From Synergistaceae bacterium (GTDB lineage: Bacteria > Synergistota > Synergistia > Synergistales > Aminobacteriaceae), in NCBI GenBank assembly GCA_017450125.1, contig JAFSWZ010000017.1, positions 1 to 64,000 on the forward strand: a stretch of DNA of 64,000 nucleotides, read 5' to 3'. This document shows, one piece after another, positions 50,802 to 63,686 of this stretch; the stretch's first letter is position 1, and every line of letters starts with the position of its first letter. Position numbers and translations under genes: made by a program. The notes under the pieces were generated by a model. That model ran no database searches. It was not told where the DNA came from and saw nothing but the letters and a program-made list of their open reading frames with translations.

Positions 50802-51065
50802 TTGGCAGTGGCGGTCTTGCGTTCACATTCACAGATAACAATTCCTGCTTCTGTTATCTCAAGTCTGGGGCTGAAAGAGGGCGACCAGCTCGAAATTTTT
50901 GCTGACAACGGAACAATAAGCATGATACCTGTAGCAGTTTACCCCGTTGATTACGTTGAACAGCTCCGCAAAGAGACGGCAGAACTCAGAGATAACATAT
51001 CTTCAGGGAAACAGCCTGTGTTCGATAGCGTTGACGCGATGATTGAGGCTCTGGAGAAGTCCTGA
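50802..51065 (+). CDS. AbrB/MazE-type antitoxin
   Basis: 87 aa from TTG 50802 with AAAGGAGG 10 bases upstream. The N-terminal swapped-hairpin DNA-binding fold is seen in SHSQITIPASVISSLGLKEG and DQLEIFADNGTISMIPV. The C-terminal 35 residues (VEQLRKETAELRDNISSGKQ then SVDAMIEALEKS) should wrap around the toxin. It overlaps the toxin start by one base (TGATG), which enforces joint translation. Confidence 0.85.
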   Translation: MAVAVLRSHSQITIPASVISSLGLKEGDQLEIFADNGTISMIPVAVYPVDYVEQLRKETAELRDNISSGKQPVFDSVDAMIEALEKS

Positions 51066-51328
51066 TGCTGAAAATCACTTACTCTGAACGTTTCCAGAAG
51101 CACTACAAGAAACTTTCAGCGGACGAGAAAGCTCAATTCAGGCGGAAGCTCGATGTGTTTGCGGATAATCCACTTCACCCTTCGCTGAGAACGAAACACA
51201 TTAAGGGTACTGACGGATTATTTGAGTTCAGCGTCAACATGGATATTCGAGTCATCTGGTTTTACGAGGGAGAAAATCTAGTTGCTCTTGTTGACATAGG
51301 GCATCACGACATCCTGAAAAACTTTTGA
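51065..51328 (+). CDS. RelE/YafQ-like toxin
   Basis: 87 aa. ITYSERFQKHYKKLSADEKA, HPSLRTKHIKGTDGLFEFSV, DIRVIWFYEGENLVALVDIG and a C-terminal HHDILKNF follow the RelE/YafQ/ParE fold, with the basic residues and the terminal His of the mRNA-interferase branch. It probably cleaves mRNA in the ribosome when the AbrB-type antitoxin is lost. Pairing of a RelE-type toxin with an AbrB-type antitoxin is a known mixed arrangement. The gene ends 6 bases before the repeat-containing promoter at 51334-51404. Confidence 0.87.
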   Translation: MLKITYSERFQKHYKKLSADEKAQFRRKLDVFADNPLHPSLRTKHIKGTDGLFEFSVNMDIRVIWFYEGENLVALVDIGHHDILKNF

Positions 51329-51404: not shown

Positions 51405-51440
51405 TCACCCATGAATCCCACACAGAAAGGATTGACACAA

Positions 51441-53123
51441 GTGAATGATACTCGGTATAATGGCTCACGGCTCACGGTCAAACTATACTCTCCACACTGT
51501 AACTTCCCGCAATTCCTGAGGCATATTGCGCTCGTCATCGTACTGTTCCTAGCGTCATCCGGCACGGCTTGGGCGACGACGACCTCGACCATCACCGTAA
51601 GCGGCACGGACTACCTGCTGTTCACGGGCTTCACCGCTACGGGCGGAAACGGCAAGAACTACGCTAAGCTTGTGGACGGCAATACCAATACCGACTGGAG
51701 TGCATTGAAAAATTACGACGATGGGACAACGAATGATTTCGCAGGCGGCACGGAAGACCCCGCATTTGTGGAGTTCCACGCCGATTCGCCTGTCATACCG
51801 AAGGGCTATGTCCTGACCTGCGACAGTGAGAACGCCGGCTTCTGGAAACCCGTGCAGTGGGCGTTCAAGGCGAAACTGAACGAGGGCGACGAATGGACTG
51901 CCATTCATTCCTCAACGACAACGCTCGGTGCGGGAAAGACTTTCGAGATTGCCTGCACCAACGACGCGGGCAATCAGTATCAGTATTTCCGATTTGAGGT
52001 TTACGAAGTCGGCACAACAATGAAGGTGGACTTGGACGAAGTGCAGATTTATGCCCAGTTTACATATACCCCTGTATCCGCAAGGGCTGCGACCTGCACG
52101 GAATACGGTCTGTCGAGTGGCGGCTATCTGCGAAACGACGGCAAGTATTTCTCGGATGCAAACGGTACTACTGAGCTGACCGTAGGCAACGGCCTCATTG
52201 ATAAGATTCCCCACACAGGCGTACACCACGAAGCAGACGCGAATCATATTGAGTATTGGCAATGCTCCGTGTGCAGCAAGTATTTCACCGATGAAGCCTG
52301 CACTCATGAAGTTACGGCGGACGAAGTGCTGAAAACCGTCTTCGGAACGCTGACCGCCGGGACAAACGGCGCAAGCGGTTACTACACCCTCGAAAGCAAG
52401 ACCTATACGCTGACAGAAGATGTCAACACCGCCGGATATATCTACGTTCCTGAAGGCGTTACGGCTGCAATCGACCTTGCCGGGCATACTATTGACCGTG
52501 GGCTGACAAGTGCCATAACGAACGGAATGGTTATCCGGGTTGAGGGCAGCCTGACGGTTACAGACAGCGGCACGGGCGGCACGATAAAGGGCGGCATGGA
52601 CTCCAGCACTGAACATGTTTCCTGCGTTTTGGTTTACAGTGAGAATAGCAACCCCGTATTCACCCTGCAAGGCGGTACGCTTATCGGAAACACGAGCAAT
52701 CAATATAACAGTGCGGTTTTGGCCCCTAATAATTCGAACATTACCATTTCCGGCGGAAAGATTACCGGTGATGTATATGGTATTCATTCATATGGCAATG
52801 TTGCGGTATCCGGCGGTGAAATCAGCGGCAACACTACGGGAATATGGTCGCAGACCAACAGCGTTTCCGTGTCAGGCAATCCTGTCATCGCGAATAATAC
52901 CAACGCAAATGTCATGCTGTATTATGGCGACGCTTCTGTCTTGACCATTGCGGGCGAATTGACCGCTGGAGCAAATATCGGTATCACGGAAGGTGGCGGC
53001 AGCATACCCACCGACAATGCGCCCGTTACGATCACAAGCGGCTATGGCACATATCACAGCAATATATCGCTCGGCACATACTTTTCGCTTGACAACAACG
53101 GCCAAACGCTCGTAATGGGCTAG
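51441..53123 (+). CDS. Secreted beta-helix/repeat protein, N-terminal part before an in-frame amber
   Basis: 560 aa up to TAG 53121-53123. The predicted transcription start is near 51411, so ATG 51411 would have no leader; GTG 51441, about 9 bases after AAAGGA, is preferred. The signal peptide is hydrophobic (IALVIVLFLASSGTAWA). Next is a discoidin-like beta-sandwich (LVDGNTNTDWSALKNYDD ... YQYFRFEVYEVGTTMKVDLD), then a Cys-containing insert (HIEYWQCSVCSKYFTDEACT). Then follow right-handed beta-helix repeats of the type ITISGGKITGDVYGIHSYGN and VAVSGGEISGNTTGIWSQTN. The frame continues without frameshift after the TAG into the ORF at 53160-55742, so this is one 1433-codon gene split by a nonsense codon. 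Confidence 0.8.
   Translation: MNDTRYNGSRLTVKLYSPHCNFPQFLRHIALVIVLFLASSGTAWATTTSTITVSGTDYLLFTGFTATGGNGKNYAKLVDGNTNTDWSALKNYDDGTTNDFAGGTEDPAFVEFHADSPVIPKGYVLTCDSENAGFWKPVQWAFKAKLNEGDEWTAIHSSTTTLGAGKTFEIACTNDAGNQYQYFRFEVYEVGTTMKVDLDEVQIYAQFTYTPVSARAATCTEYGLSSGGYLRNDGKYFSDANGTTELTVGNGLIDKIPHTGVHHEADANHIEYWQCSVCSKYFTDEACTHEVTADEVLKTVFGTLTAGTNGASGYYTLESKTYTLTEDVNTAGYIYVPEGVTAAIDLAGHTIDRGLTSAITNGMVIRVEGSLTVTDSGTGGTIKGGMDSSTEHVSCVLVYSENSNPVFTLQGGTLIGNTSNQYNSAVLAPNNSNITISGGKITGDVYGIHSYGNVAVSGGEISGNTTGIWSQTNSVSVSGNPVIANNTNANVMLYYGDASVLTIAGELTAGANIGITEGGGSIPTDNAPVTITSGYGTYHSNISLGTYFSLDNNGQTLVMG
53121..53123 (+). other. In-frame amber codon splitting the surface-protein gene
   Basis: GGC TAG AAT GAG: the codon before and all 12 codons between it and the next ATG (53160) are in the same open frame as the downstream 860-codon ORF. 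A single G-to-A change of TGG (Trp) would create it. TAG ends many other genes in the window, so general amber recoding is unlikely. Confidence 0.85.
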
Positions 53124-53159: not shown

Positions 53160-55742
53160 ATGAGAACCGTAACCTTTGACCTTCAAGGGCACGGCTCTGC
53201 TATTGAAGCGGTAAGCCTGTTAAGCGGCTATAAGCTGGTTGAACCGACTGAGCCGACAGCCGAGGGCTGGAGCTTTGGCGGATGGTACACCGATGAGGAC
53301 TTCACGGATGGTAATGAGTGGGACTTTGACAGCAGCGTTACTTCTGATATGACGCTGTACGCACTGTGGACGCAGGGGCAGATGTATCGTGTAACTCTGC
53401 CTGAGAATATGATTATCGTCAGTGCTGACAATGCGGCGGTCGGCGGTAAATATCCGTCAGGTACAAATATCAGATTCAAGGCTGCGCCGGATTATGTGGT
53501 TGACGGCGACGTAAAGAATGGAACTGAAACGCTGACCGCAGACGAAGACGGTATTTATACTGTAGCTTTAGGAAATGCAGACATCACCATTACCGCCACG
53601 ATAAAGAAAGCTGCTGAACCGAACAAGACCCTTTCGGGAAGCGAGAGTTATACGGCACAGAACGGCGACGTGCTGACAGGTTCGACCTCCGGCACGGTAA
53701 CGATTCCCGACGGAGCAAGCATTACGCTTTCCGATGTGAGCATTGGCGGCGGCATAGTCTGCAACGGCACGGCTACGATTACCCTCGTCGGTACGAACAG
53801 TGCGACGGGCGCAACCCAAAAGGCAGGTATCGAGGTCGGCGGAGAGAACACAACGCTCACTATCAAGGGCAACGGCTCGCTGACGGCAACCGGCGGCCAA
53901 CATTCAGCAGGGATCGGCCTTAGTCGTGCTTGGGATCCTGCCAATGATGTCATCGGCGGCGATATTATCATCGAGGGCGGAACTATCACTGCAAACGGCG
54001 GCTATTGGGGCGCAGGTATCGGCACGGGCGTTATCTATGGTAACGGCAGCGCGAAGACCGCAAGACTCGGCAACATCACCATCAAGGGCGGCACGGTAAA
54101 GGCAACAGGCGGCACTGATGCAGACGGAATCGGAACAGGATACACCTACAGCCCATGCACAAACGCAATCGGAACAGTAACGGTTTATGACGGCATCGAC
54201 AAGGTTGACGCTTCGAGCATCAAGGACTTCACCAGCGTGGTCTATATGCACAGCGAGACCAACGTAACCGCCAACAAGACCGACTACTTCACCATCAGCG
54301 AGGACGGCGACCGCAGAGTCATCACACAGAAGCACTACACTATCACCGTTGCTGGCGGCATTGAGAATGGCAGAGTTACTGCGGGCAAGTCCGGGGCTGT
54401 CGAGGGTGATACTGTTACCCTGACTATTACGCCCGTCGATGGCTACAGCATCGGCACGGTGAGCTATAACGACACGGAAATAACCGCTAATAACGGTGTC
54501 TATTCGTTCACGATGCCTGCTGTCAGCGTAACTATATCCGTAACGTTTACGCCAATCCCCTACACAATCACGTACAACCTTGACGGCGGCAGTCTTGCAG
54601 ACGGCGTGAGCAACCCCGCGAGCTACACGGTCGAGGACACACCCATAACCCTGACGAACCCCGCGAAGGACGGTTACACCTTCAAGGGCTGGACTGGTAC
54701 AGACCTCACCGAAGCAACACAGACCGTAACGATTGCGCAGGGCTCGACGGGAAACCGCGCGTATTCCGCAGTGTGGGAGCAGAACGGCGGAACATCACCA
54801 GAGTCCGGCGCGCCTAAGTTCAAGTATCAGGCTCTCGTGCTCGACGGGAAGATAGCGGTCAGGTTCGCGATGGATCTATCTTCACTTGATGAGACGGTGC
54901 GTTCAGGAAGCTATATGATGTTCGACATCAGCGGCGACAGAACCTCAAACAACCGCAAGCCTTTCTATGAGACCGACAGCTTCACCGACGGGACGGGCAA
55001 ATATTACTACTTCGACTGCGGAATCAAGTCCATCGAGATGGCGAACAACATCAGAGCCGAGTTCTATTACGGTGATGGTCTGGTCGTCAGCAAGGATTAC
55101 ACGGCGAGGCAGTACCTCAACGACATGCTCGCAGATGAGAAGTATGCAGGGAATGATGATTACAGCGTCGCAGTCCGAAACCTGATGAAGGCAATCAAGG
55201 ATTACGGGCATTACGCACAGCTGATGCTCTCTGCGTACAGGGGCTGGAGTCTCGGCGGGGATTATGCTCCGATCGAGAACGAGAACACTTACGCGAGCAG
55301 TGATGTAACTCTAGTGAACAGCATTAAGTCGGCGACGGAGCAATACGCTTTCCGCAAGACTATCAGCGGCTCTGACATTGAAGAAGTAACTTTCAGCCTT
55401 GCGCTGGACTCGTACACGACCATCAATGTACTGGTGAACTCGGCCTCAGAGGTAACAGCGTCCCTCAAGAACGGAGGCGGGCTTCAGGTCGTGCCTCAGG
55501 ACAATAACCGTTATCTTATCGAGCTGGACAACATACCTGCCCACGAACTCACCAAGACATTCGATGTTGTGATAAACGCCGGAAACAGCTCGTGCGAAGT
55601 GAACGTGTCGGCAATGTCGTACGTTTACGCCGTTCTGACGGACAGCACTGATTATGCGTATGAGCCGGAGCTTGCTGCTGCACTGTACAAGTATTACGAG
55701 GCGAATCAGGCCTACAGGACAGCGGCAGGGTATTCGGACTAG
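53160..55742 (+). CDS. Secreted repeat protein, C-terminal part after the amber codon
   Basis: 860 aa from ATG 53160, though the same frame extends to 53124 and no ribosome site precedes the ATG, so independent translation is doubtful. It contains an InlB-type B-repeat (VTFDLQGHGSAIEAVSLLSG ... GWSFGGWYTDEDFTDGNEWD), a carbohydrate-binding-like beta-helix with GIEVGGENTTLTIKGNGSLT and GGTITANGGYWGAGIGTG, a second B-repeat (YTITYNLDGGSLADGVSNPA) and a C-terminal alpha/beta domain (YQALVLDGKIAVRFAMDLSS onward) also common on gut-bacterial surface proteins. There is no LPXTG or membrane anchor. The peptide gene starts 21 bases after its stop. The bottom half of this ORF is a good candidate for horizontal origin, judging by domain content. 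Confidence 0.75.
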   Translation: MRTVTFDLQGHGSAIEAVSLLSGYKLVEPTEPTAEGWSFGGWYTDEDFTDGNEWDFDSSVTSDMTLYALWTQGQMYRVTLPENMIIVSADNAAVGGKYPSGTNIRFKAAPDYVVDGDVKNGTETLTADEDGIYTVALGNADITITATIKKAAEPNKTLSGSESYTAQNGDVLTGSTSGTVTIPDGASITLSDVSIGGGIVCNGTATITLVGTNSATGATQKAGIEVGGENTTLTIKGNGSLTATGGQHSAGIGLSRAWDPANDVIGGDIIIEGGTITANGGYWGAGIGTGVIYGNGSAKTARLGNITIKGGTVKATGGTDADGIGTGYTYSPCTNAIGTVTVYDGIDKVDASSIKDFTSVVYMHSETNVTANKTDYFTISEDGDRRVITQKHYTITVAGGIENGRVTAGKSGAVEGDTVTLTITPVDGYSIGTVSYNDTEITANNGVYSFTMPAVSVTISVTFTPIPYTITYNLDGGSLADGVSNPASYTVEDTPITLTNPAKDGYTFKGWTGTDLTEATQTVTIAQGSTGNRAYSAVWEQNGGTSPESGAPKFKYQALVLDGKIAVRFAMDLSSLDETVRSGSYMMFDISGDRTSNNRKPFYETDSFTDGTGKYYYFDCGIKSIEMANNIRAEFYYGDGLVVSKDYTARQYLNDMLADEKYAGNDDYSVAVRNLMKAIKDYGHYAQLMLSAYRGWSLGGDYAPIENENTYASSDVTLVNSIKSATEQYAFRKTISGSDIEEVTFSLALDSYTTINVLVNSASEVTASLKNGGGLQVVPQDNNRYLIELDNIPAHELTKTFDVVINAGNSSCEVNVSAMSYVYAVLTDSTDYAYEPELAAALYKYYEANQAYRTAAGYSD

Positions 55743-55763
55743 CAGGAAGGAGGTGAATTAAGA

Positions 55764-55874
55764 ATGGAGCATAAAGCAGAGTACAAGAGGCTTGAGATTG
55801 AGGTCGTAGATTACGAGTACGAAGACGTGATCACGACAAGCGACGGAGCTACTACTACTCCTTATCATGGATAA
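55764..55874 (+). CDS. Candidate 36-residue precursor peptide of the modification cassette
   Basis: A small gene with the strongest ribosome site in the window (GGAAGGAGGTGAA, 10 bases before ATG). The product is 36 aa, acidic and Tyr-rich: the leader-like part MEHKAEYKRLEIEVVDYEYE, then DVIT, then a core-like TSDGATTTPYHG with Ser and four Thr. The arrangement Y-K-x-x-x-I-E-V-V-x-Y-x-x-E-D-V-I-T-T-S recalls short precursor-like peptides that I remember in Clostridia beside PqqD genes; this is recollection, not a search. It overlaps the kinase gene start by 8 bases, so it is coupled to it. Phosphorylation of the Ser/Thr core by the kinase would be the simplest hypothesis. Confidence 0.72.
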   Translation: MEHKAEYKRLEIEVVDYEYEDVITTSDGATTTPYHG

Positions 55875-56568
55875 GGTTTACCGTATAGCAGACAGGAACA
55901 TACGGATCAGCTCGCTGTTCTCGTTCATTCACGTTTACTGCGCTGAATACCAGACGGACAGCGAGCCTGATTTTGAGGTGGAGACAACGTATGCGGACAT
56001 TGAGGCCGAACGCAGGACGGTAAGCGCGGAAGTTGCGGGCGGATGGGCGGAGGTCTCTGCGGTGTTCAGGAAGATAGCGGAGAGAATGCCGGAGTACAGT
56101 ACGTTCATGCTTCACGGCTCTGCAGTTGCTGTTGACGGGGAAGGTTACTTGTTCACGGCGAAGAGCGGGACGGGGAAATCAACGCACGCGAGGCTGTGGC
56201 GCGAACTTCTGGGAGGCCGGGCCGTGATGGTGAACGACGACAAACCGTTTGTCAGGGTTGCCGACGGTGAAGCGATAGTCTGCGGAAGCCCGTACAGCGG
56301 GAAGGAAGGCCTGAACACGAACATATCAGTACCGTTGAAGGCAGTCTGCGTTCTTGAGCGTTCGGAGACTAACAGCATCAGAGAGGCGGGCTTCAGCGAG
56401 GTGTACCCAGTGCTTCTCCAGCAGACTTATCACCCGTCGGACAGAATGATGCTCGGCAGGACTCTGGAGCTTCTGGACGGTCTTGGCCAAGCTGTGAGGT
56501 TCTACAGGCTCTCCTGCAATCAGGAGCTGGAGGCGGCGGAAATGTCTTACAGCGCGATGAAAGGATAG
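55867..56568 (+). CDS. HPr-kinase-like ATPase (lasso-kinase-like peptide kinase)
   Basis: 233 aa. The C-terminal domain is that of HPr kinase/phosphorylase: P-loop FTAKSGTGKSTHARLW (residues 96-111), acidic NDDKPFVR (Asp124, Asp125), GSPYSGKEGLNTN, and a Cys- and Tyr-containing end. The HPrK N-terminal domain and the phosphorylase signature are absent, as in the kinases of paeninodin-type lasso peptide clusters, which phosphorylate a Ser of the precursor. It starts inside the last codons of the peptide gene and is followed after 3 bases by the PqqD gene. A peptide Ser/Thr kinase role is inferred from family and context. Confidence 0.82.
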   Translation: MDKVYRIADRNIRISSLFSFIHVYCAEYQTDSEPDFEVETTYADIEAERRTVSAEVAGGWAEVSAVFRKIAERMPEYSTFMLHGSAVAVDGEGYLFTAKSGTGKSTHARLWRELLGGRAVMVNDDKPFVRVADGEAIVCGSPYSGKEGLNTNISVPLKAVCVLERSETNSIREAGFSEVYPVLLQQTYHPSDRMMLGRTLELLDGLGQAVRFYRLSCNQELEAAEMSYSAMKG

Positions 56569-56571
56569 ACT

Positions 56572-56838
56572 ATGAGGTTAAGGGATGAATTTCTGACCCA
56601 CACGAGCGGCGGTGAAGCGTACTTAGTGCCGTCGGGAAACGTTGAGTTTCGGGGATTAGTGAGGGGCAATGAATCACTCGGTGAAGTCATCGAGCTCTTG
56701 AAGACTGACACGACAGAAGCGGAAATCGTTAAGGCTCTGCGTGAAAAGTACAGCGCGCCGGACGGAGCAATAGAGCTTGATGTCAGGAAAGCAGTAGAAG
56801 TTCTGCGGAGCGTGGGGGCATTAATTGAGCAGCCTTGA
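56572..56838 (+). CDS. PqqD-family peptide chaperone (RiPP recognition element)
   Basis: 88 aa, PqqD-like: three N-terminal strands (FLTHTSGGEAYLVPSGNVEF) and a helical half (SLGEVIELLKTDTTEAEIVK then YSAPDGAIELDVRKAVEVLR) in the winged-helix order of peptide-binding RRE domains. Such proteins bind the leader of a ribosomal peptide and present it to modifying enzymes. It stands third in the cassette; its last 14 bases overlap the peptidase gene. Its presence is the main argument that the cassette modifies a peptide. Confidence 0.9.
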   Translation: MRLRDEFLTHTSGGEAYLVPSGNVEFRGLVRGNESLGEVIELLKTDTTEAEIVKALREKYSAPDGAIELDVRKAVEVLRSVGALIEQP

Positions 56839-57241
56839 ACAATACCTGTCAGAACACGGACGCGTAATCTCCGCGAATGTCGGAGTGAGTATGCTGCCGC
56901 TTTTGCGTGAAGGGAAGGATCTATTCTTCTTAGAGAAGAAGGGGGCTGAACGCTGCAGAGCCGGTGATGTGGTTCTTTACCGCCGGAAGCGTCAGTACGT
57001 GCTTCACCGTGTAATTGAGGTTCGGGAGAAGGATTATGTTATTCTTGGCGACAACTGCACGGCGAAGGAGTACGGCATTCAGGACGGCGACATTCTGGCA
57101 GTGATGACCTCATTCATCCGCAGCGGCAGAGAACACAGCGTGAAGGAGTTTGCGTACAGGGTATATTCGTTCGTGTGGCTGAAGATTGCTCCTCTGCGGA
57201 TATTCTTGAAGCGTTCAGTGAAGGGGCTGATCGGGCGATGA
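56825..57241 (+). CDS. Soluble S24/S26-type serine peptidase
   Basis: 138 aa from TTG 56825. The signal-peptidase box GVSMLPLLREGKDLFFLEKK places Ser22 as nucleophile. VLYRRKRQYVLHRVIEV has His61 where bacterial type I signal peptidases have Lys, as in the SipW/ER type, and VILGDNCTAKEYGIQDGDIL gives the Asp76. The N-terminal membrane anchor of true signal peptidases is missing, so it is probably cytoplasmic or only loosely bound through the hydrophobic C-terminus (VYSFVWLKIAPLRIFLK). In this cassette it is a candidate for cutting the leader from the precursor, replacing the transglutaminase-like B2 protease of lasso clusters. Confidence 0.82.
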   Translation: MSSLEQYLSEHGRVISANVGVSMLPLLREGKDLFFLEKKGAERCRAGDVVLYRRKRQYVLHRVIEVREKDYVILGDNCTAKEYGIQDGDILAVMTSFIRSGREHSVKEFAYRVYSFVWLKIAPLRIFLKRSVKGLIGR

Positions 57242-58311
57242 TAACAGGCACGGCGGAGGCGGTGATATACCTCGCTTCCTGTGCGGTGAACGGTACGAAG
57301 CCGGATGCAGAGAGGCTCGCAGGAGCAGACTTCGGAGCGTTGCTGTCGTTCGCGTCGTATCACATGCTGGGTGCGGTTGTCGCGATGGGGCTCGAAGATG
57401 CAGGGTTCACGGGCAGGGACATTCGGAAGCATATAGCGTTCTCGGTGAGGAAGAGCGTATGCTTTGAGGCGGCGAACCGTGAAGTTCTTGCTGGTCTTGA
57501 GGAAGCGGGGATCTGGTACATGCCGCTGAAAGGTGCTGTGCTGAAAGATTACTATCCGCGCTTCGGAATGCGCGAGATGTCCGACTACGACATACTGATT
57601 GACACTACACGCGCCCACGACGTGAGGAGGATAATGCAGTCTCTGGGGTTCAGGACTGAGGAGTTCGGCTGGGGAACTCATGACGTGTATTACCGCGAGC
57701 CGCTCTGCAACTTCGAGATGCACAGGGAGCTGTTCGAGGCCTCGTTTGATGAGCACCTGCACTCCTGCTATTCCAGCGTGAAAAGCAGACTGATAAAGGA
57801 TGACGGGAATAATTACGGCTACCATTTCACCCCTGAAGATTTCTACCTGTACATTACAGCCCACGAGTACAAGCATTATTCGCTGGGAGGTACAGGACTG
57901 CGCTCGCTGCTTGATGTTTATGTGCTCCTGAGGAGGTTCGAGGGACAGCTTGATTTCGGCTATGTATTGAGTGAGGCGGAGAAGCTGGGGCTCTCGGAGT
58001 TCGAGGCCAAGAATCGCGGGCTCGCACTGAACCTTTTCGGGAACAGGGAACTGACTGACGGGGAACAGGAGATGCTTGAATATATCGTTCAGTCAGGAGT
58101 TCACGGCAACGTAGAGATCAGCGTACGCAACGGCCTGAAGAAATGCGGCGGTGGCAAGATAAAGTACCTGCTCTCGAGAATATTTCCTTCCATGAATAGC
58201 ACCAAGCACAAAATCTATTACCCTGCTCTGATAATTTTCCGCCTGCTGAGAGCATTAACCCTGAAACGGCACAAAATCCTGCTCGAGCTCCGGCATCTGT
58301 TCTCCGCGTAA
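57238..58311 (+). CDS. Nucleotidyltransferase-family protein (NTP_transf_5)
   Basis: 357 aa from ATG 57238, which overlaps the peptidase stop as ATGA; the frame is open 21 codons upstream within the peptidase gene. The nucleotidyltransferase fold appears as YMPLKGAVLKDYYPRFGMRE followed by MSDYDILID, with Asp116 and Asp118 as the metal-binding pair; NFEMHRELFEASFDEHLHSC and PEDFYLYITAHEYKHYSLGG follow the family pattern. Members occur in some lasso and lantibiotic clusters, where a role in nucleotidylating or glycosylating the peptide has been proposed. It is the last gene of the cassette; no transporter gene follows. Confidence 0.83.
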   Translation: MITGTAEAVIYLASCAVNGTKPDAERLAGADFGALLSFASYHMLGAVVAMGLEDAGFTGRDIRKHIAFSVRKSVCFEAANREVLAGLEEAGIWYMPLKGAVLKDYYPRFGMREMSDYDILIDTTRAHDVRRIMQSLGFRTEEFGWGTHDVYYREPLCNFEMHRELFEASFDEHLHSCYSSVKSRLIKDDGNNYGYHFTPEDFYLYITAHEYKHYSLGGTGLRSLLDVYVLLRRFEGQLDFGYVLSEAEKLGLSEFEAKNRGLALNLFGNRELTDGEQEMLEYIVQSGVHGNVEISVRNGLKKCGGGKIKYLLSRIFPSMNSTKHKIYYPALIIFRLLRALTLKRHKILLELRHLFSA

Positions 58312-58377: not shown

Positions 58378-58406
58378 TAGCAGACCTTAGGGAAGTGAGG
58401 CAGTCT

Positions 58407-59498
58407 ATGAGGAAAATCATCTTTATCGCGTTCTTTCTCCTTTTCGCCGCCATCGCAGGAATCTACCTGATACACGATATACAGGTGAACACTGATGTTA
58501 CGGCCAAGACCACGAAAGTAGGCGTACTGATAAACGGAAGCCGCTACGACCACAGCTATTGCCAGGCACATTATGAGGCACTAGAGGCCATCAAGGACGA
58601 GCTTAACCTCGAGTACGTCTATCTGGAGCATGTGCCTATGAACTGCTATAAAGACATTGTCAGCCTCATACGCGACAAGGACTGCAAGATTATTATCGGT
58701 GTATCGTTCGAGTTCGGCATTGACATGATGAAGGCGGCGGAAAAGTTCCCAAGCATTTACTTTCTCCACGCGTCAGGAGTAAATCACCGTAAAAATTTCT
58801 CCTCATTCTTCGGCAGAATGTATCAGGCACGTTATCTTTCTGGCATCGCTGCGGGCATGAACACCAAAACAGGAGAACTCGGCTACGTTGCGGCGTTCCC
58901 CATCTCGGAGGTCATCAGGGGCATCAACGCCTTCACTCTCGGAGTCAGGAGCGTACGGCCGGACGCTGTCGTTCATGTGCGTTACTGCAACGCGTGGCAG
59001 GGGGACGAAGTAGCCGGAGAAGTCTGCCGCAAACTGCTGGAGCTTCATCCCATTGACGTTGTGGCAATGCACACAGATTCACTACAGCCACACATAGAAG
59101 CCGACGCTAGAGGGATATGGTCTGTCGGCTACAACATCAACAACGCCGCTATGTTCCCGGATACCTATCTGACCGCCTGCATCTGGAAGTGGGAAGTGTA
59201 TTACCGCAAGCAGATACTTAACTGCCTGCAGGGGAAATTCATCGGGCATCATGATTTGATGGAGATGGATGAAGGCATTGTTGCTCTCTCGGGATTGTCC
59301 GAACATGCAGACCCGCAGACGAAAGCCAAAGTCCAGGCCGCAGACGAAAAGCTCCGTACTCTGGAATTTGACGTGTTCTACGGCCCGATTACGGACAACG
59401 CGAACATTCTGCGCATCGATGAAGGAGAATCCATGCCCGACGACGAGATGTTCAACCGCTTTTACTGGTATGTGGAGGGCGTGAATGTTGAAGAGTAG
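58407..59498 (+). CDS. Membrane-anchored BMP/PnrA-type binding protein 1
   Basis: 363 aa. An N-terminal membrane helix without lipobox Cys (MRKIIFIAFFLLFAAIAGIY) is followed by a basic-membrane-protein (BMP, PnrA-like) periplasmic binding fold: KVGVLINGSRYDHSYCQAHY, IIIGVSFEFGIDMMKAAEKF, RMYQARYLSGIAAGMNTKTG, ELGYVAAFPISEVIRGINAF, VVAMHTDSLQPHIEADARGI. Characterised BMP proteins bind purine nucleosides for ABC uptake; no transporter is here. Instead it overlaps a second BMP gene and a sensor kinase gene, so it is probably a ligand sensor component. ATG 58407 is chosen because transcription should start near 58384. Confidence 0.85.
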   Translation: MRKIIFIAFFLLFAAIAGIYLIHDIQVNTDVTAKTTKVGVLINGSRYDHSYCQAHYEALEAIKDELNLEYVYLEHVPMNCYKDIVSLIRDKDCKIIIGVSFEFGIDMMKAAEKFPSIYFLHASGVNHRKNFSSFFGRMYQARYLSGIAAGMNTKTGELGYVAAFPISEVIRGINAFTLGVRSVRPDAVVHVRYCNAWQGDEVAGEVCRKLLELHPIDVVAMHTDSLQPHIEADARGIWSVGYNINNAAMFPDTYLTACIWKWEVYYRKQILNCLQGKFIGHHDLMEMDEGIVALSGLSEHADPQTKAKVQAADEKLRTLEFDVFYGPITDNANILRIDEGESMPDDEMFNRFYWYVEGVNVEE

Positions 59499-60588
59499 GA
59501 AATGGGCGGTGCATGACCTGCCTCTGCTGCTTGCGGGGATTATCTGCGTTGTGCTGGTCGTCGTGATTCAGAGCTTCCAGCTGCCGGAGACGGGACGGCG
59601 TATTGTCGTAGGCTGTGTCCTTGTAGGCGATAGAGACGACAAGGGCTGGAACGAGAGCCACTGCATCGGTCTGCTGAATGCCTGCCGCACTTACGACTGC
59701 GGCTTTATGGCGTGGGAACGTGTTGCTGAGAGCGAGCCCACTGTGTCCGCCGCTGTCAGGGAGCTCGTGAATAACGGTGCTAACGTAATCTTTCTGACAA
59801 GTTTCGGCTACGGCCAGTACATGGACGAGATTGCACGGAAATATCCGCGTGTAGCATTCTTCGGGATTTCCGGCGAAGGTGCGGCCAAGAACTCGACAAC
59901 GTATTTTGCACGGCTGTATCAGGCACGGTATATCGCAGGTATAATCGCCGGAGCAGAAAGCAGGACAGGCATTCTCGGCTACGTTACTTCCGCGCCGAAC
60001 CCTCAGGTGAACCGCAGCATCAACGCCTACGCTATGGGTATGCGCCTCGCTAATCCGAAGGCACGGCTCATCGTCCGATTCACAGGAAGCTGGGAGAACA
60101 AAGCGGCTGAACGTGAAAGCGTAGTCCTGCTCGCGGAGAAGGGAGCTGATGTCATAACCTACCATGAGGACAGACCCTACGCCGTGCAAGAAGCCGAGAA
60201 GCTCGGGCTTATGAGCATAGGCTATGATGCTGTGTACGAGAAATATTCTGATAAGTTCCTGACAGCCGCATTGTACAACTGGAAGGTTCTCTACGAGAAA
60301 GTGCTCGGGGATTACACCAGCGGAAGGTCTAACTTCTCCAGCAGCTACTGGCTCGGCTTCGAGGAAGATGCTGTAGCCCTGTATCCGTTCTCGCCGCGAG
60401 TGTCAGAGAAAGCCGCGTCTCTGGCTTCTGCGGGGAAAGAAAGAATCATGAATTACAGCAGCGTCTTTTCCGGCGTAATTTACGACAATCAGGGGATGCT
60501 TCGCTGCAACAAGGACGAACGAATCAGCGACCATGAACTTTTTACGGGTATGGAGTGGTTCGTAGAAGGAGTAGAGATTTATGACTAA
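59485..60588 (+). CDS. Membrane-anchored BMP/PnrA-type binding protein 2
   Basis: 367 aa, paralog of the preceding protein and overlapping it by 14 bases. Anchor helix LLLAGIICVVLVVVIQSF; BMP motifs GCVLVGDRDDKGWNESHCIG, RLYQARYIAGIIAGAESRTG, ILGYVTSAPNPQVNRSINAY and FTGSWENKAAERESVVLLAE. The C-terminal end (ELFTGMEWFVEGVEIYD) matches that of protein 1 (EMFNRFYWYVEGVNVEE), a conserved end that may touch the kinase sensor domain. It overlaps the kinase gene by 8 bases. Confidence 0.85.
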   Translation: MLKSRKWAVHDLPLLLAGIICVVLVVVIQSFQLPETGRRIVVGCVLVGDRDDKGWNESHCIGLLNACRTYDCGFMAWERVAESEPTVSAAVRELVNNGANVIFLTSFGYGQYMDEIARKYPRVAFFGISGEGAAKNSTTYFARLYQARYIAGIIAGAESRTGILGYVTSAPNPQVNRSINAYAMGMRLANPKARLIVRFTGSWENKAAERESVVLLAEKGADVITYHEDRPYAVQEAEKLGLMSIGYDAVYEKYSDKFLTAALYNWKVLYEKVLGDYTSGRSNFSSSYWLGFEEDAVALYPFSPRVSEKAASLASAGKERIMNYSSVFSGVIYDNQGMLRCNKDERISDHELFTGMEWFVEGVEIYD

Positions 60589-63346
60589 GCGAATATCCAT
60601 GCTCGTGATTAGCAAAGGCTCTGTCTTGGTGACGGCGGTCTTCGGAGTACTGCTGCTTTTCGTGGGAGTGATGTTCAATGTGCGAATGGACGAGCTCCTG
60701 ACAGCCTACACCGAGAACCAGACAGAACGTCAGGCGGAAACCCTCGCGGAGAAGGCCGCAGAAACTCTCGGGACTGAGCTTAAGACGCTCGCCTATGTTG
60801 CCTCAAAGATTGAAGCCAACCCCGCAGCAATCCGCCTGCTGATGCCTCTGCTCTTCAACGAAAAAGGAGTACGGCAGGGACTTCTGGCCATCGACGGTCA
60901 TGCAGTGTACGGGGACGCGCTTTCCCTGCGGACATATAGCGGCATAAAGACGGCGTTTCGCGGCACAAGTGCCATCACTTTCGCCAGAGAGGCAGGACTC
61001 CTCTTTACCTGCCCGGTATTTCACGGCAAGAACGTCAAGTACGTCCTCTATCGGCTGTACCCGCTTAAGTCTATTGCTGAACGTTTCTCCATAACTTGCT
61101 ATGACGACATCGGAAAGATTCTGATTGTTACGCGGGACGGTGATATAGTCGTTCCGTTCGCGGAAAATGCCTCTAAGGATGTAGCCTTCATGCAGAGCAA
61201 TGAAGTCAAGGGCTTCTACCGCTCCATGCATAGGGAAATGGAAGTATCGGTGGCGGCCGCACGTTCCTTCAGGACGATACGCGGGGAAATGCTGCTGTTC
61301 GAGGCGGAAATTCCCGGCACGGACTATATACTGATGGGGTTCGTACCCAAGATGAAAGCCTCTGAGGGCATCGAGAATATCACGCTCTTAGTGGTGTGGG
61401 TGTTCGGACTGCTTATGCTGCTGGTTGCTTTGGGGTGTATGTATCTGGTTCGCGTTCGTGTGCAGATTCAGGAGAGCGAAGAACTGAGGGAGGCGAAGGC
61501 GGCGGCAGAGTATGCGTCTCAGGCAAAGAGCGTGTTCCTGTCCAACATGTCGCACGAGATTCGTACGCCGATTAATGCGGTGCTCGGCATGAATGAGATG
61601 ATTCTGCGTGAGAGTGAAGAACGTAACATTCTCGAGTACTCCGAGAACATTCGCACGGCAGGTACTACGTTGCTGGGGCTCATCAATGACATCCTCGACT
61701 TCAGCAAGATCGAGGCCGGCAAGATGGACATTATCCCCGTAACTTATGACCTGTCCTCCGTCATCAATGACCTCGTCAACATGATACAGGCACGCGCAGA
61801 CAAGAAGGGGCTTCTGCTAAAGCTCGACTTTGACGGCAATATCCCGAAGATGCTTCACGGCGACGAGGTACGAATCAAGCAGGTTGTTACGAACATCCTC
61901 ACCAACGCCGTAAAATACACCGAGAAAGGCAGCGTAACTTTCCGAATCGGCTATGAAGCTGACGGTTCAGACGGCGTGTTTCTGGACTTCGCTGTGATTG
62001 ATACGGGAATAGGGATAAAGCCTGAAGACATGGCCAAGCTGTTCTCAGAGTTCGAGCGCATCGAGGAGAAACGCAACCGCAGCATTGAGGGCACGGGCTT
62101 AGGGATGAACATCACCAAACGGCTGCTCGAGATGATGGGTACGTCGCTGAAGGTTGAGAGCGTTTACGGCAAGGGTTCAACGTTCTCGTTCCGGCTTCGG
62201 CAGGGGGTCATAAAGTGGGACGCGCTGGGAGATTACGAGGCGGCTCACAGAGCTTCTCTGCTCTCGATGAAGAAGTATAAGGAGAGGTTCACTGCTCCTG
62301 ACGCACGCGTCCTTGTTGTTGACGATACGCCGATGAACCTGACGGTGTTCAAGGGGCTGCTCAAGAAGACGCTCATAAGGATTGACACGGCCGACAGCGG
62401 GATGCAGGCCCTCTCGCTCGCGGGGGAGAAGAAGTACGATGTTATCTTTGTCGACCACATGATGCCCAACATGGACGGCATAGAGACGCTCCAAAGGTTA
62501 CGGGCTGATACTGCAGGGCTGAACTTCACGACACCCGCTATATGCCTGACAGCCAACGCAATTTCCGGTGCGCGTGAAGAGTATCTCGCCGCAGGGTTCG
62601 ACGACTACCTGAGCAAGCCCATTGATGCCGTGAAACTCGAGGACATGCTGACGCGATACCTTCCGCCGGAGAAAATTCTTGCCCCTAGCGACGCTGAGCC
62701 CGCACATAACACCTCTCTTCCCGAGTGGTTGTACGGCATTGAGGAGCTGGATGTTAGGGCAGGGCTGAAACACTGCGGCGACGAGGAAGCATATCTCGAT
62801 ACCCTCAAAATCTATGGTAGCTACTCAGCGGCAGGAGCGGACGAGATTGCGGGGTTCTGGACTTCACGGGACATCGCCAACACTACGGTGAAGGTTCACG
62901 CCCTCAAGAGTACTTCACGTGCTATCGGTGCGGAGGATCTGGGGGCTCTGGCGGAGAAGCTCGAGTTTGCCGGCAAGGCTGGTGATGCGGCTGTGCTTGA
63001 CGCGGACTTGGCCGGACTGCTCGAACGTTACAGGGCTTTAGGGGCGGCGTTGTCCCCGCTGTACGCTCCCGCGAAAAATGCTCAGGATGAAGCGGAGCTT
63101 CCGCCGGTCCCTGAAGACGAACTGCGCAAAGCATATAATTCTGTCCGTGAGTGCGCGGAAAATCTTGACGTTGACGGCGCGCTCTCTGCGCTGGACTGCC
63201 TGAAGGGGTTTCGACTGCCTGAGAGCGAGAAGCAACGGGTTGAACAGCTCCGCAGTGCGGTAGACGAGTTCGACTGGGACAGCGTAAACGAAATTTTAGG
63301 AGGTATTCATGACAATGGAGAAGAAACAGATTCTGCTCGTGGATGA
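60581..63346 (+). CDS. Hybrid sensor histidine kinase with receiver and HPt domains
   Basis: 921 aa. Membrane helices at about 14-32 and 266-290 bracket a 230-residue outside sensor domain (Cache-like by position). Then HisKA with SNMSHEIRTPINAVLGMNEM (His325), HATPase_c (NILTNAVKYTEKGSV, VIDTGIGI, SIEGTGLGMNITKRLLEMMG), a receiver domain with phospho-acceptor Asp625 in VIFVDHMMPNMDG and Lys679, and an HPt domain with VHALKSTSRAIGA (His773). The C-terminal 100 residues are helical without a named domain. It forms an operon with two BMP proteins and a receiver-only protein; signal flow is probably His325 to Asp625 to His773 to the separate regulator. Confidence 0.93.
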   Translation: MTKRISMLVISKGSVLVTAVFGVLLLFVGVMFNVRMDELLTAYTENQTERQAETLAEKAAETLGTELKTLAYVASKIEANPAAIRLLMPLLFNEKGVRQGLLAIDGHAVYGDALSLRTYSGIKTAFRGTSAITFAREAGLLFTCPVFHGKNVKYVLYRLYPLKSIAERFSITCYDDIGKILIVTRDGDIVVPFAENASKDVAFMQSNEVKGFYRSMHREMEVSVAAARSFRTIRGEMLLFEAEIPGTDYILMGFVPKMKASEGIENITLLVVWVFGLLMLLVALGCMYLVRVRVQIQESEELREAKAAAEYASQAKSVFLSNMSHEIRTPINAVLGMNEMILRESEERNILEYSENIRTAGTTLLGLINDILDFSKIEAGKMDIIPVTYDLSSVINDLVNMIQARADKKGLLLKLDFDGNIPKMLHGDEVRIKQVVTNILTNAVKYTEKGSVTFRIGYEADGSDGVFLDFAVIDTGIGIKPEDMAKLFSEFERIEEKRNRSIEGTGLGMNITKRLLEMMGTSLKVESVYGKGSTFSFRLRQGVIKWDALGDYEAAHRASLLSMKKYKERFTAPDARVLVVDDTPMNLTVFKGLLKKTLIRIDTADSGMQALSLAGEKKYDVIFVDHMMPNMDGIETLQRLRADTAGLNFTTPAICLTANAISGAREEYLAAGFDDYLSKPIDAVKLEDMLTRYLPPEKILAPSDAEPAHNTSLPEWLYGIEELDVRAGLKHCGDEEAYLDTLKIYGSYSAAGADEIAGFWTSRDIANTTVKVHALKSTSRAIGAEDLGALAEKLEFAGKAGDAAVLDADLAGLLERYRALGAALSPLYAPAKNAQDEAELPPVPEDELRKAYNSVRECAENLDVDGALSALDCLKGFRLPESEKQRVEQLRSAVDEFDWDSVNEILGGIHDNGEETDSARG

Positions 63347-63686
63347 TGATGTTACGTTCCTGAAGATGATGCAGACTTGGCTGTCGGCAGATTACCGCGT
63401 CGCCGCCGCTCGTACAGGCATGCAGGCTCTAAAGTATCTGGCTGAACATTCGGCTGACCTCATCCTTCTGGATTACGAGATGCCGCTTATGGACGGCCCG
63501 AAAATCCTTGAAGCACTACGCAGCAAGCCGGGAACCGCGAGCATTCCCGTTATCTTCCTGACTGGCAAGAGCGATCCTGAGAGCGTCAGGAACGTCATGA
63601 GCCTGAAACCCGCAAGTTACCTCCTGAAGTCCAAGAACAAAGAAGAGATACTGGAATCGCTGAGCAGTTTCTTCATCAATCACTAG
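63309..63686 (+). CDS. Single-domain response regulator (CheY-like)
   Basis: 125 aa receiver domain: acidic pocket LLVDDDVTFL, phospho-Asp in LILLDYEMPLMDG, Thr in PVIFLTGKSD, Lys in SYLLKSKNKEE. It lacks an output domain. ATG 63309 follows TTAGGAGG by 5-6 bases and lies inside the last 38 bases of the kinase gene. It would receive phosphate from the kinase HPt domain, or act as a phosphate sink. If the operators at 51334 and 58306 answer this pathway, the DNA-binding protein must be encoded elsewhere. Confidence 0.92.
   Translation: MTMEKKQILLVDDDVTFLKMMQTWLSADYRVAAARTGMQALKYLAEHSADLILLDYEMPLMDGPKILEALRSKPGTASIPVIFLTGKSDPESVRNVMSLKPASYLLKSKNKEEILESLSSFFINH

Follow-up and report, generated by a model that had tools for sequence, protein, structure and literature searches.

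A cassette related to linear polyphosphorylated peptide clusters in Synergistaceae, and the pairing of its precursor peptides with a secreted-protein domain

We analysed a stretch of 64,000 nucleotides from a Synergistaceae bacterium of the gut (assembly GCA_017450125.1, contig JAFSWZ010000017.1, positions 1 to 64,000; hereafter the window). One + strand operon in it holds five genes, which encode a 36-aa peptide, a kinase resembling HPr kinase (HprK), a discrete PqqD-type RRE (recognition element for ribosomally synthesized and post-translationally modified peptides, RiPPs), a soluble peptidase of signal peptidase I (SPase I) fold and an NTP_transf_5 protein (A, K, B, S and N, respectively; Table 1). 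An earlier reading of the sequence alone (the sequence-only reading) had proposed these genes as a peptide-modifying cassette; all five were found where it placed them, and their identities were borne out by family matches, invariant residues and a structure model. What that reading missed is the pairing of the peptide gene with the secreted-protein gene just upstream, which appears to be the more unusual feature.

Table 1. Features of the operon and of the partner gene upstream of it, in window coordinates.
Feature	Position	Strand	Remarks
N-terminal part of secreted partner (signal peptide, beta-helix-like)	51411..53123	+	Signal-like stretch FLRHIALVIVLFLASSGTAWA; ends at in-frame TAG 53121-53123
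Secreted/surface partner protein	53160..55742	+	InlB-type (Flg_new) repeats and tandem immunoglobulin (Ig)-like C-terminal domain; same frame as 51411..53123
C-terminal domain of the partner, about 290 aa, profile A2	54840..55739	+	No Pfam family; AlphaFold model: two Ig-like sandwiches
Shine-Dalgarno sequence of peptide gene, AAGGAGGTGA	55747..55756	+	Full motif; equivalents 5' of most homologous peptides
Precursor peptide gene (A), 36 aa	55764..55874	+	Leader EYKRLEIEVVDYEYEDVITTS, tail DGATTTPYHG; S26 = candidate phosphosite
HprK-like peptide kinase (K, LppK-like)	55867..56568	+	H83, GKS of Walker A (SGTGKST in window), D124 D125 invariant
PqqD-type discrete RRE (B, LppB-like)	56572..56838	+	N33, D70 invariant
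Soluble SPase-I-like serine peptidase (S, LppS-like), Ser22-His61	56825..57241	+	S22, H61, D76 invariant
NTP_transf_5 nucleotidyl/glycosyltransferase-like protein (N, LppN/PsmN-like)	57238..58311	+	E 4e-40; D116-x-D118 invariant

The kinase matched Hpr_kinase_C weakly (E 5e-4), and its H83, Walker A lysine and serine, and D124-D125 were invariant in an alignment of 18 relatives. The RRE scored above the Pfam PqqD cut-off (E 1e-7), and both of its listed residues were retained across 15 aligned RREs. The peptidase fell below Pfam and TIGRFAM cut-offs (TIGR02228, E 1e-10); its structure model (predicted local distance difference test, pLDDT, 94) matched the folds of SPase I, SEC11, LexA and UmuD, and no membrane anchor was apparent. 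Its S22, H61 and D76 did not vary in aligned relatives, and D87 (H+26) is present in the window and not invariant. For the nucleotidyltransferase, invariance was established on seven aligned sequences, and the most likely start is the ATG at 57238, overlapping the peptidase stop as ATGA, a GTG at 57175 being disfavoured. PDB sequence searches with the kinase, RRE and peptidase returned weak or chance matches only. Elsewhere (L014:1935-2906 and L015:2364-3335), kinase and RRE are naturally fused in a single 323-aa open reading frame (ORF).

The possibility that the peptide is a chance ORF was ruled out, because it has a Shine-Dalgarno sequence and its leader is under strong purifying selection in congeners (pN/pS 0.00-0.22, synonymous sites often saturated). 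Leaders of the family follow the consensus [YF]xxPxxEVIxFxxEDVITxS. The window leader, YKRLEIEVVDYEYEDVITTS, retains the Tyr and the border Ser between leader and core but has Leu in place of Pro (YxxL); the Pro is kept in 23 of 34 family peptides. All 34 have Y or F at the position of the lasso Trp, and the lasso-type WxxP motif is absent. The invariance of the border Ser is partly a product of selection by the profile, and Thr takes its place in at least one of the paired peptides (L148, IITAT). Beyond this residue the tail is hypervariable among paralogues while the leader is conserved: genome G001 has four peptide copies with leaders near-identical letter for letter and four unrelated tails. 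By its sequence, this combination of conserved leader and hypervariable tail is the signature of a RiPP precursor. In genome G023, tandem peptide genes (L107:766-1336) adjoin the enzyme set and differ in their tails, one lacking a start codon. In 25 of the 37 peptides of Synergistaceae pairs, the final three residues include an aromatic one (SLY, FNLF, SSWF), which may be a signal at the C-terminus.

With a peptide profile (A1) we scanned 61 genomes; the genus set comprised 37 genomes (the window's own and 36 relatives). The kinase occurs in 12 of these 37. Peptides of the family were found in 11 of the 12 kinase-bearing genomes vs none of the 25 kinase-less ones (p=1.4e-8; a marginal match in G019, E 0.07, was left out of the count). 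The C-terminal domain of the secreted partner is distributed in the same manner (10/12 vs 0/25, p=1.9e-7), and all ten domain-bearing genomes have both kinase and peptide. The sequence-only reading had regarded loss of the peptide from all relatives that keep the enzymes as damaging to its proposal. Five same-genus genomes do carry enzymes without an adjoining peptide gene (B-K-S-N in four, K-S-N in G003), yet profile A1 detected peptide genes elsewhere in those five.

Several genomes hold up to 9 peptide genes unlinked to their single enzyme set. Nearly all of these scattered genes begin within tens of nucleotides 3' of a large secreted-protein gene, and most of the upstream proteins carry the C-terminal domain of the window protein. 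Of the 49 peptide genes, 40 come next after a domain gene, a position that each would occupy with a chance of about 0.13% if placed at random; of the 54 domain genes, 38 have a peptide next downstream. Within genomes, the distances between domains correlate with those between peptides (p=0.006), as would follow if the gene pair is duplicated and diverges jointly. The window holds one such protein-peptide pair, adjoining the enzyme set.

Searches with profile A2, built from the C-terminal domain, gave no Pfam family and, in the PDB, no convincing sequence match. The AlphaFold model (pLDDT 69, 6 sequences) predicts two Ig-like sandwiches with helices after each; Foldseek and VIA searches with it returned generic antibody-type folds only, and no functional analogue is claimed. 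The same domain was found near peptides on proteins with unrelated N-terminal parts in two phyla. These domain proteins have a signal peptide, whereas none is apparent in the kinase, RRE or peptidase. At two loci (L139 and L153) the secreted partner upstream of the peptide has a divergent C-terminal end, and the two peptides are closely similar (TTPRIP tails).

In order to determine how far the pairing extends, we turned to relatives of the kinase beyond the genus. Most of them belong to Clostridia of the rumen and gut, and one locus is from Paludibacteraceae (Bacteroidota). The peptide is present in 30 of 45 genomes of kinase relatives, often again 3' of a secreted protein, and a domain profile made from Synergistaceae only detected the Clostridial upstream proteins at E 9e-76 to 2e-10. 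As an independent sample, 120 Bacillota genomes were drawn evenly from the family to which one Clostridial carrier belongs; 16 had a strong kinase match, 12 the peptide and 11 both (p=4e-11). A domain ORF lay 16-167 nt upstream of 13 of the 17 peptide loci in this sample, and three of the 13 required a profile to which Clostridial members had been added. In some Oscillospiraceae a SPASM radical S-adenosylmethionine (SAM) maturase is encoded just 3' of the peptide, and further chemistry is therefore likely in them. Clostridial loci with such a maturase are L199, L205, L208 and L211; that of L199, the only one tested, scored below all NCBIfam equivalog cut-offs. A SPASM-like radical-SAM protein of 475 aa, in which a PqqD domain stands at the N-terminus, is encoded in the window's own genome (L088, G000:C34); no link between it and the window locus was seen.

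The enzyme cassette itself is not new but of a recently described kind, here in a new phylum. Linear polyphosphorylated peptides (LPPs), encoded by lppA-K-B-S-D-N of Paenibacillus alginolyticus, were published in May 2026 in Nat Commun (PMC13381572). The LPP kinase adds up to four phosphates to one core Ser, the RRE (LppB) binds a YxxP leader via N33 and D70, of which D70 contacts the leader Tyr, and leader removal by an SPase-like Ser-His peptidase depends on the RRE; both phosphorylation and SPase-I-like cleavage were demonstrated in vitro as well as in a heterologous host (PMC13381572). The window shares these members and their order, A-K-B-S-(D)-N with D missing, and co-localises the core set of SPase-I-like peptidase, discrete RRE, HprK-like kinase, NTP transferase and precursor. 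Compared by published numbers, S22-H61 of the window peptidase has the same spacing, 39, as S29-H68 of LppS (catalytic S29/H68/D93; PMC13381572); for the Asp, the invariant D76 and the variable D87 at H+26 are both candidate counterparts. The RRE residues N33 and D70 bear the same numbers as those of LppB, a comparison by residue number, LppB 9x8z being unmatched in the PDB search. Both families have a Tyr-based leader motif and a conserved Ser at the leader/core border, and leader cleavage between VIT and TS or between VI and TTS would in either case be compatible with LPP.

Other features set the two apart. The LPP leader consensus, YxxPxVLxHQxIxFETxxS (PMC13381572), is not followed by the window peptide, which lacks FETxxS; leaders of its family end in FxxEDVITxS instead. 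The MsbA-like exporter LppD is absent from the window, where S and N overlap directly. The LPP authors described their family as restricted to Bacillota (PMC13381572), whereas the window genus belongs to Synergistaceae (Synergistota) and one further locus to Bacteroidota. Also different from LPP are the up to nine unlinked precursors per enzyme set, their pairing with domain-bearing secreted proteins, and the lack of a lasso cluster in the window genome. Because LPP-defining features were looked for and found wanting, we call the window set an LPP-like variant rather than a member. The sequence-only reading had suggested that kinase, RRE, peptidase and nucleotidyltransferase might be the main pathway, without lasso enzymes; this core idea was supported, and such a set had already been described as LPP (PMC13381572).

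More distant likenesses were also weighed. Paeninodin-type lasso clusters have K, RRE and NTP_transf_5 components (PMC7533575), and in pseudomycoidin PsmN, the N homologue, was linked to hexose on phospho-Ser (PMC9266682). Common to these systems (PadeK/ThcoK, PsmK, PsmN; PMC9266682) and the window are a Ser-acting HprK-like kinase, NTP_transf_5 and a discrete PqqD-type B1 protein; the window differs in having no macrolactam cyclase or B2 cysteine protease and in YxxP/YxxL in place of WxxP, and its peptide is presumably linear. The HprK-like and PqqD-like proteins of the SynChlorMet (ScmC, TIGR04249) and HPr-rel-A (TIGR04352/04353) systems are distant relatives (E 1e-5 and 0.02 here). The curated models scored far below cut-off, at 13.8/200 bits for TIGR04352, 13.3/35 for TIGR04353 and 24.6/125 for TIGR04249, and no radical SAM enzyme is present at the window locus, a further difference; some Clostridial relatives do have one.

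By analogy with LPP, the window enzymes probably phosphorylate and trim the short peptide. The RRE would hold the leader, the kinase would (poly)phosphorylate S26, the conserved Ser where leader and core meet, and the SPase-I-like peptidase would cut the leader off in the cytosol. The NTP_transf_5 protein may then cap the phosphate with a sugar or nucleotide. From the LPP and pseudomycoidin papers we infer these steps of phosphorylation, cleavage and further tailoring. The product would be a linear modified peptide, brought to the surface by some exporter of this genome, that of the cassette having been lost or being supplied from elsewhere. In relatives, a single enzyme set would mature many scattered peptides in trans. 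With one enzyme set for many scattered protein-peptide pairs there, the likeliest role of the peptide is that of a small modified subunit, clamp or anchor that works together with the shared tandem Ig-like C-terminal domain of the surface protein it is paired with.

We think it reasonably probable that the LPP-like cassette (A-K-B-S-N) matures a peptide made as the partner of the upstream surface protein, one set serving many such pairs. A physical partnership is what we infer from genomics, going beyond what the analysis itself establishes: the operon with its catalytic residues, the conservation of the peptide, the gene pairing and the joint occurrence across genomes. More tentatively, the pathway may be one of surface-protein maturation, in which each adhesin-like protein has its own peptide, phosphorylated and perhaps glycosylated, trimmed, and delivered to the C-terminal domain as subunit or anchor. 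The small subunit QhpC of quinohemoprotein amine dehydrogenase may offer a parallel: it is modified and cleaved from its leader in the cytosol and then becomes a subunit of a larger exported protein. The QhpC system differs in its radical SAM chemistry and single enzyme complex. Repeated pairing of such peptides with surface proteins, served by one trans-acting enzyme set, was not found described in the main texts of the open-access literature searched.

Several observations weigh against a partnership. No detected peptide follows 16 of the 54 domain genes, among which are the neighbours of five enzyme sets (B-K-S-N or K-S-N); in G023, 4-5 peptides stand in tandem and no domain protein is encoded; and about half of the Clostridial peptide loci, in genomes selected by their kinase, have no domain upstream. 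In the window itself, the leader carries L in place of the P of YxxP, and the partner gene, a single ORF in relatives, is interrupted by the in-frame TAG at 53121-53123, which could stem either from an error in sequencing or from genuine decay. Nor is any export route for the peptide evident. The closest homologue of the exporter in the window's own genome is a generic ABC transporter (26% identity), and most Synergistaceae enzyme sets have none; same-genus locus L014 retains an MsbA-like exporter between S and N, as several Clostridia also have an exporter.

These exporters, together with the domain-less peptides of G023, would suit an ordinary LPP-type natural product, that is, a free secreted phosphopeptide acting as signal, toxin or biofilm factor, with the upstream gene a co-regulated and co-duplicating neighbour. 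Hypervariable tails do resemble those of combinatorial RiPPs, and LPP clusters in Bacilli were reported beside capsule genes, with the role of N and the biological purpose unknown to their authors (PMC13381572). The sequence-only reading had named a polysaccharide role as a danger to its proposal, and no polysaccharide genes flank the window locus. Against a free product stand the recurrence of the same C-terminal domain beside peptides in two phyla and on unrelated N-terminal parts, the absence of both domain and peptide from the 25 kinase-less congeners, their joint divergence and the scarcity of exporters in Synergistaceae. We regard such a product as unlikely, though worth keeping in mind.

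Much less probable still is that the small ORF is a regulatory upstream ORF, with the secreted protein's C-terminal domain, or surface glycans, as direct targets of the kinase and other proteins. The five relatives in which K-S-N or B-K-S-N follows a domain gene, with no peptide between, could be read in this way. The peptides nevertheless have their own ribosome sites and lasso/LPP-type leaders, occur in tandem and unlinked copies, and are under purifying selection on their amino-acid sequence, and no signal peptide is apparent in kinase, RRE and peptidase, in contrast to the domain proteins.

As the sequence-only reading had noted, no exporter, lasso cyclase or B2 protease is encoded at the window locus, and none of the two lasso enzymes was found acting from elsewhere. 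The B2 protease family PF13471 had no match in any of the 37 genus genomes, and among 47 genomes reached via kinase loci there were weak partial matches only, mostly in large ORFs. PF00733 matched two proteins of the window's own genome, of 359 and 301 aa, on other contigs; both are short of full cyclase length and lack RiPP context, and one adjoins a LicD-like gene. A degenerate paeninodin-type lasso cluster served by a distant cyclase and B2 protease, to which the shared K, RRE and NTP_transf_5 (PMC7533575) and the lasso-type profile similarity of the RRE might point, is largely refuted by these searches and by the dedicated SPase-like leader peptidase in place of B2, and we rejected it.

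If peptide and surface protein are indeed partners, the RiPP pathway would serve to complete surface proteins and would not end in a released natural product. No role is known for LPPs, a family described as recently as 2026, and the pairing of precursor with secreted domain in two phyla gives a testable lead to one. The results also extend the LPP-like family beyond Bacillota, to genomes with one trans-acting enzyme set and many precursors, and they draw attention to a surface-protein domain that recurs in bacteria of the rumen and gut and has no Pfam model.

Two neighbouring modules lie outside the operon. Upstream of the partner gene, at 50802-51328, genes for an AbrB-like antitoxin and a RelE/YafQ-like toxin, judged from their translations, overlap. 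Downstream, at 58395-63686, genes for two Bmp/PnrA-like binding proteins directly precede those for a hybrid histidine kinase (921 aa) and a response regulator; together they likely form a module that senses a ligand.

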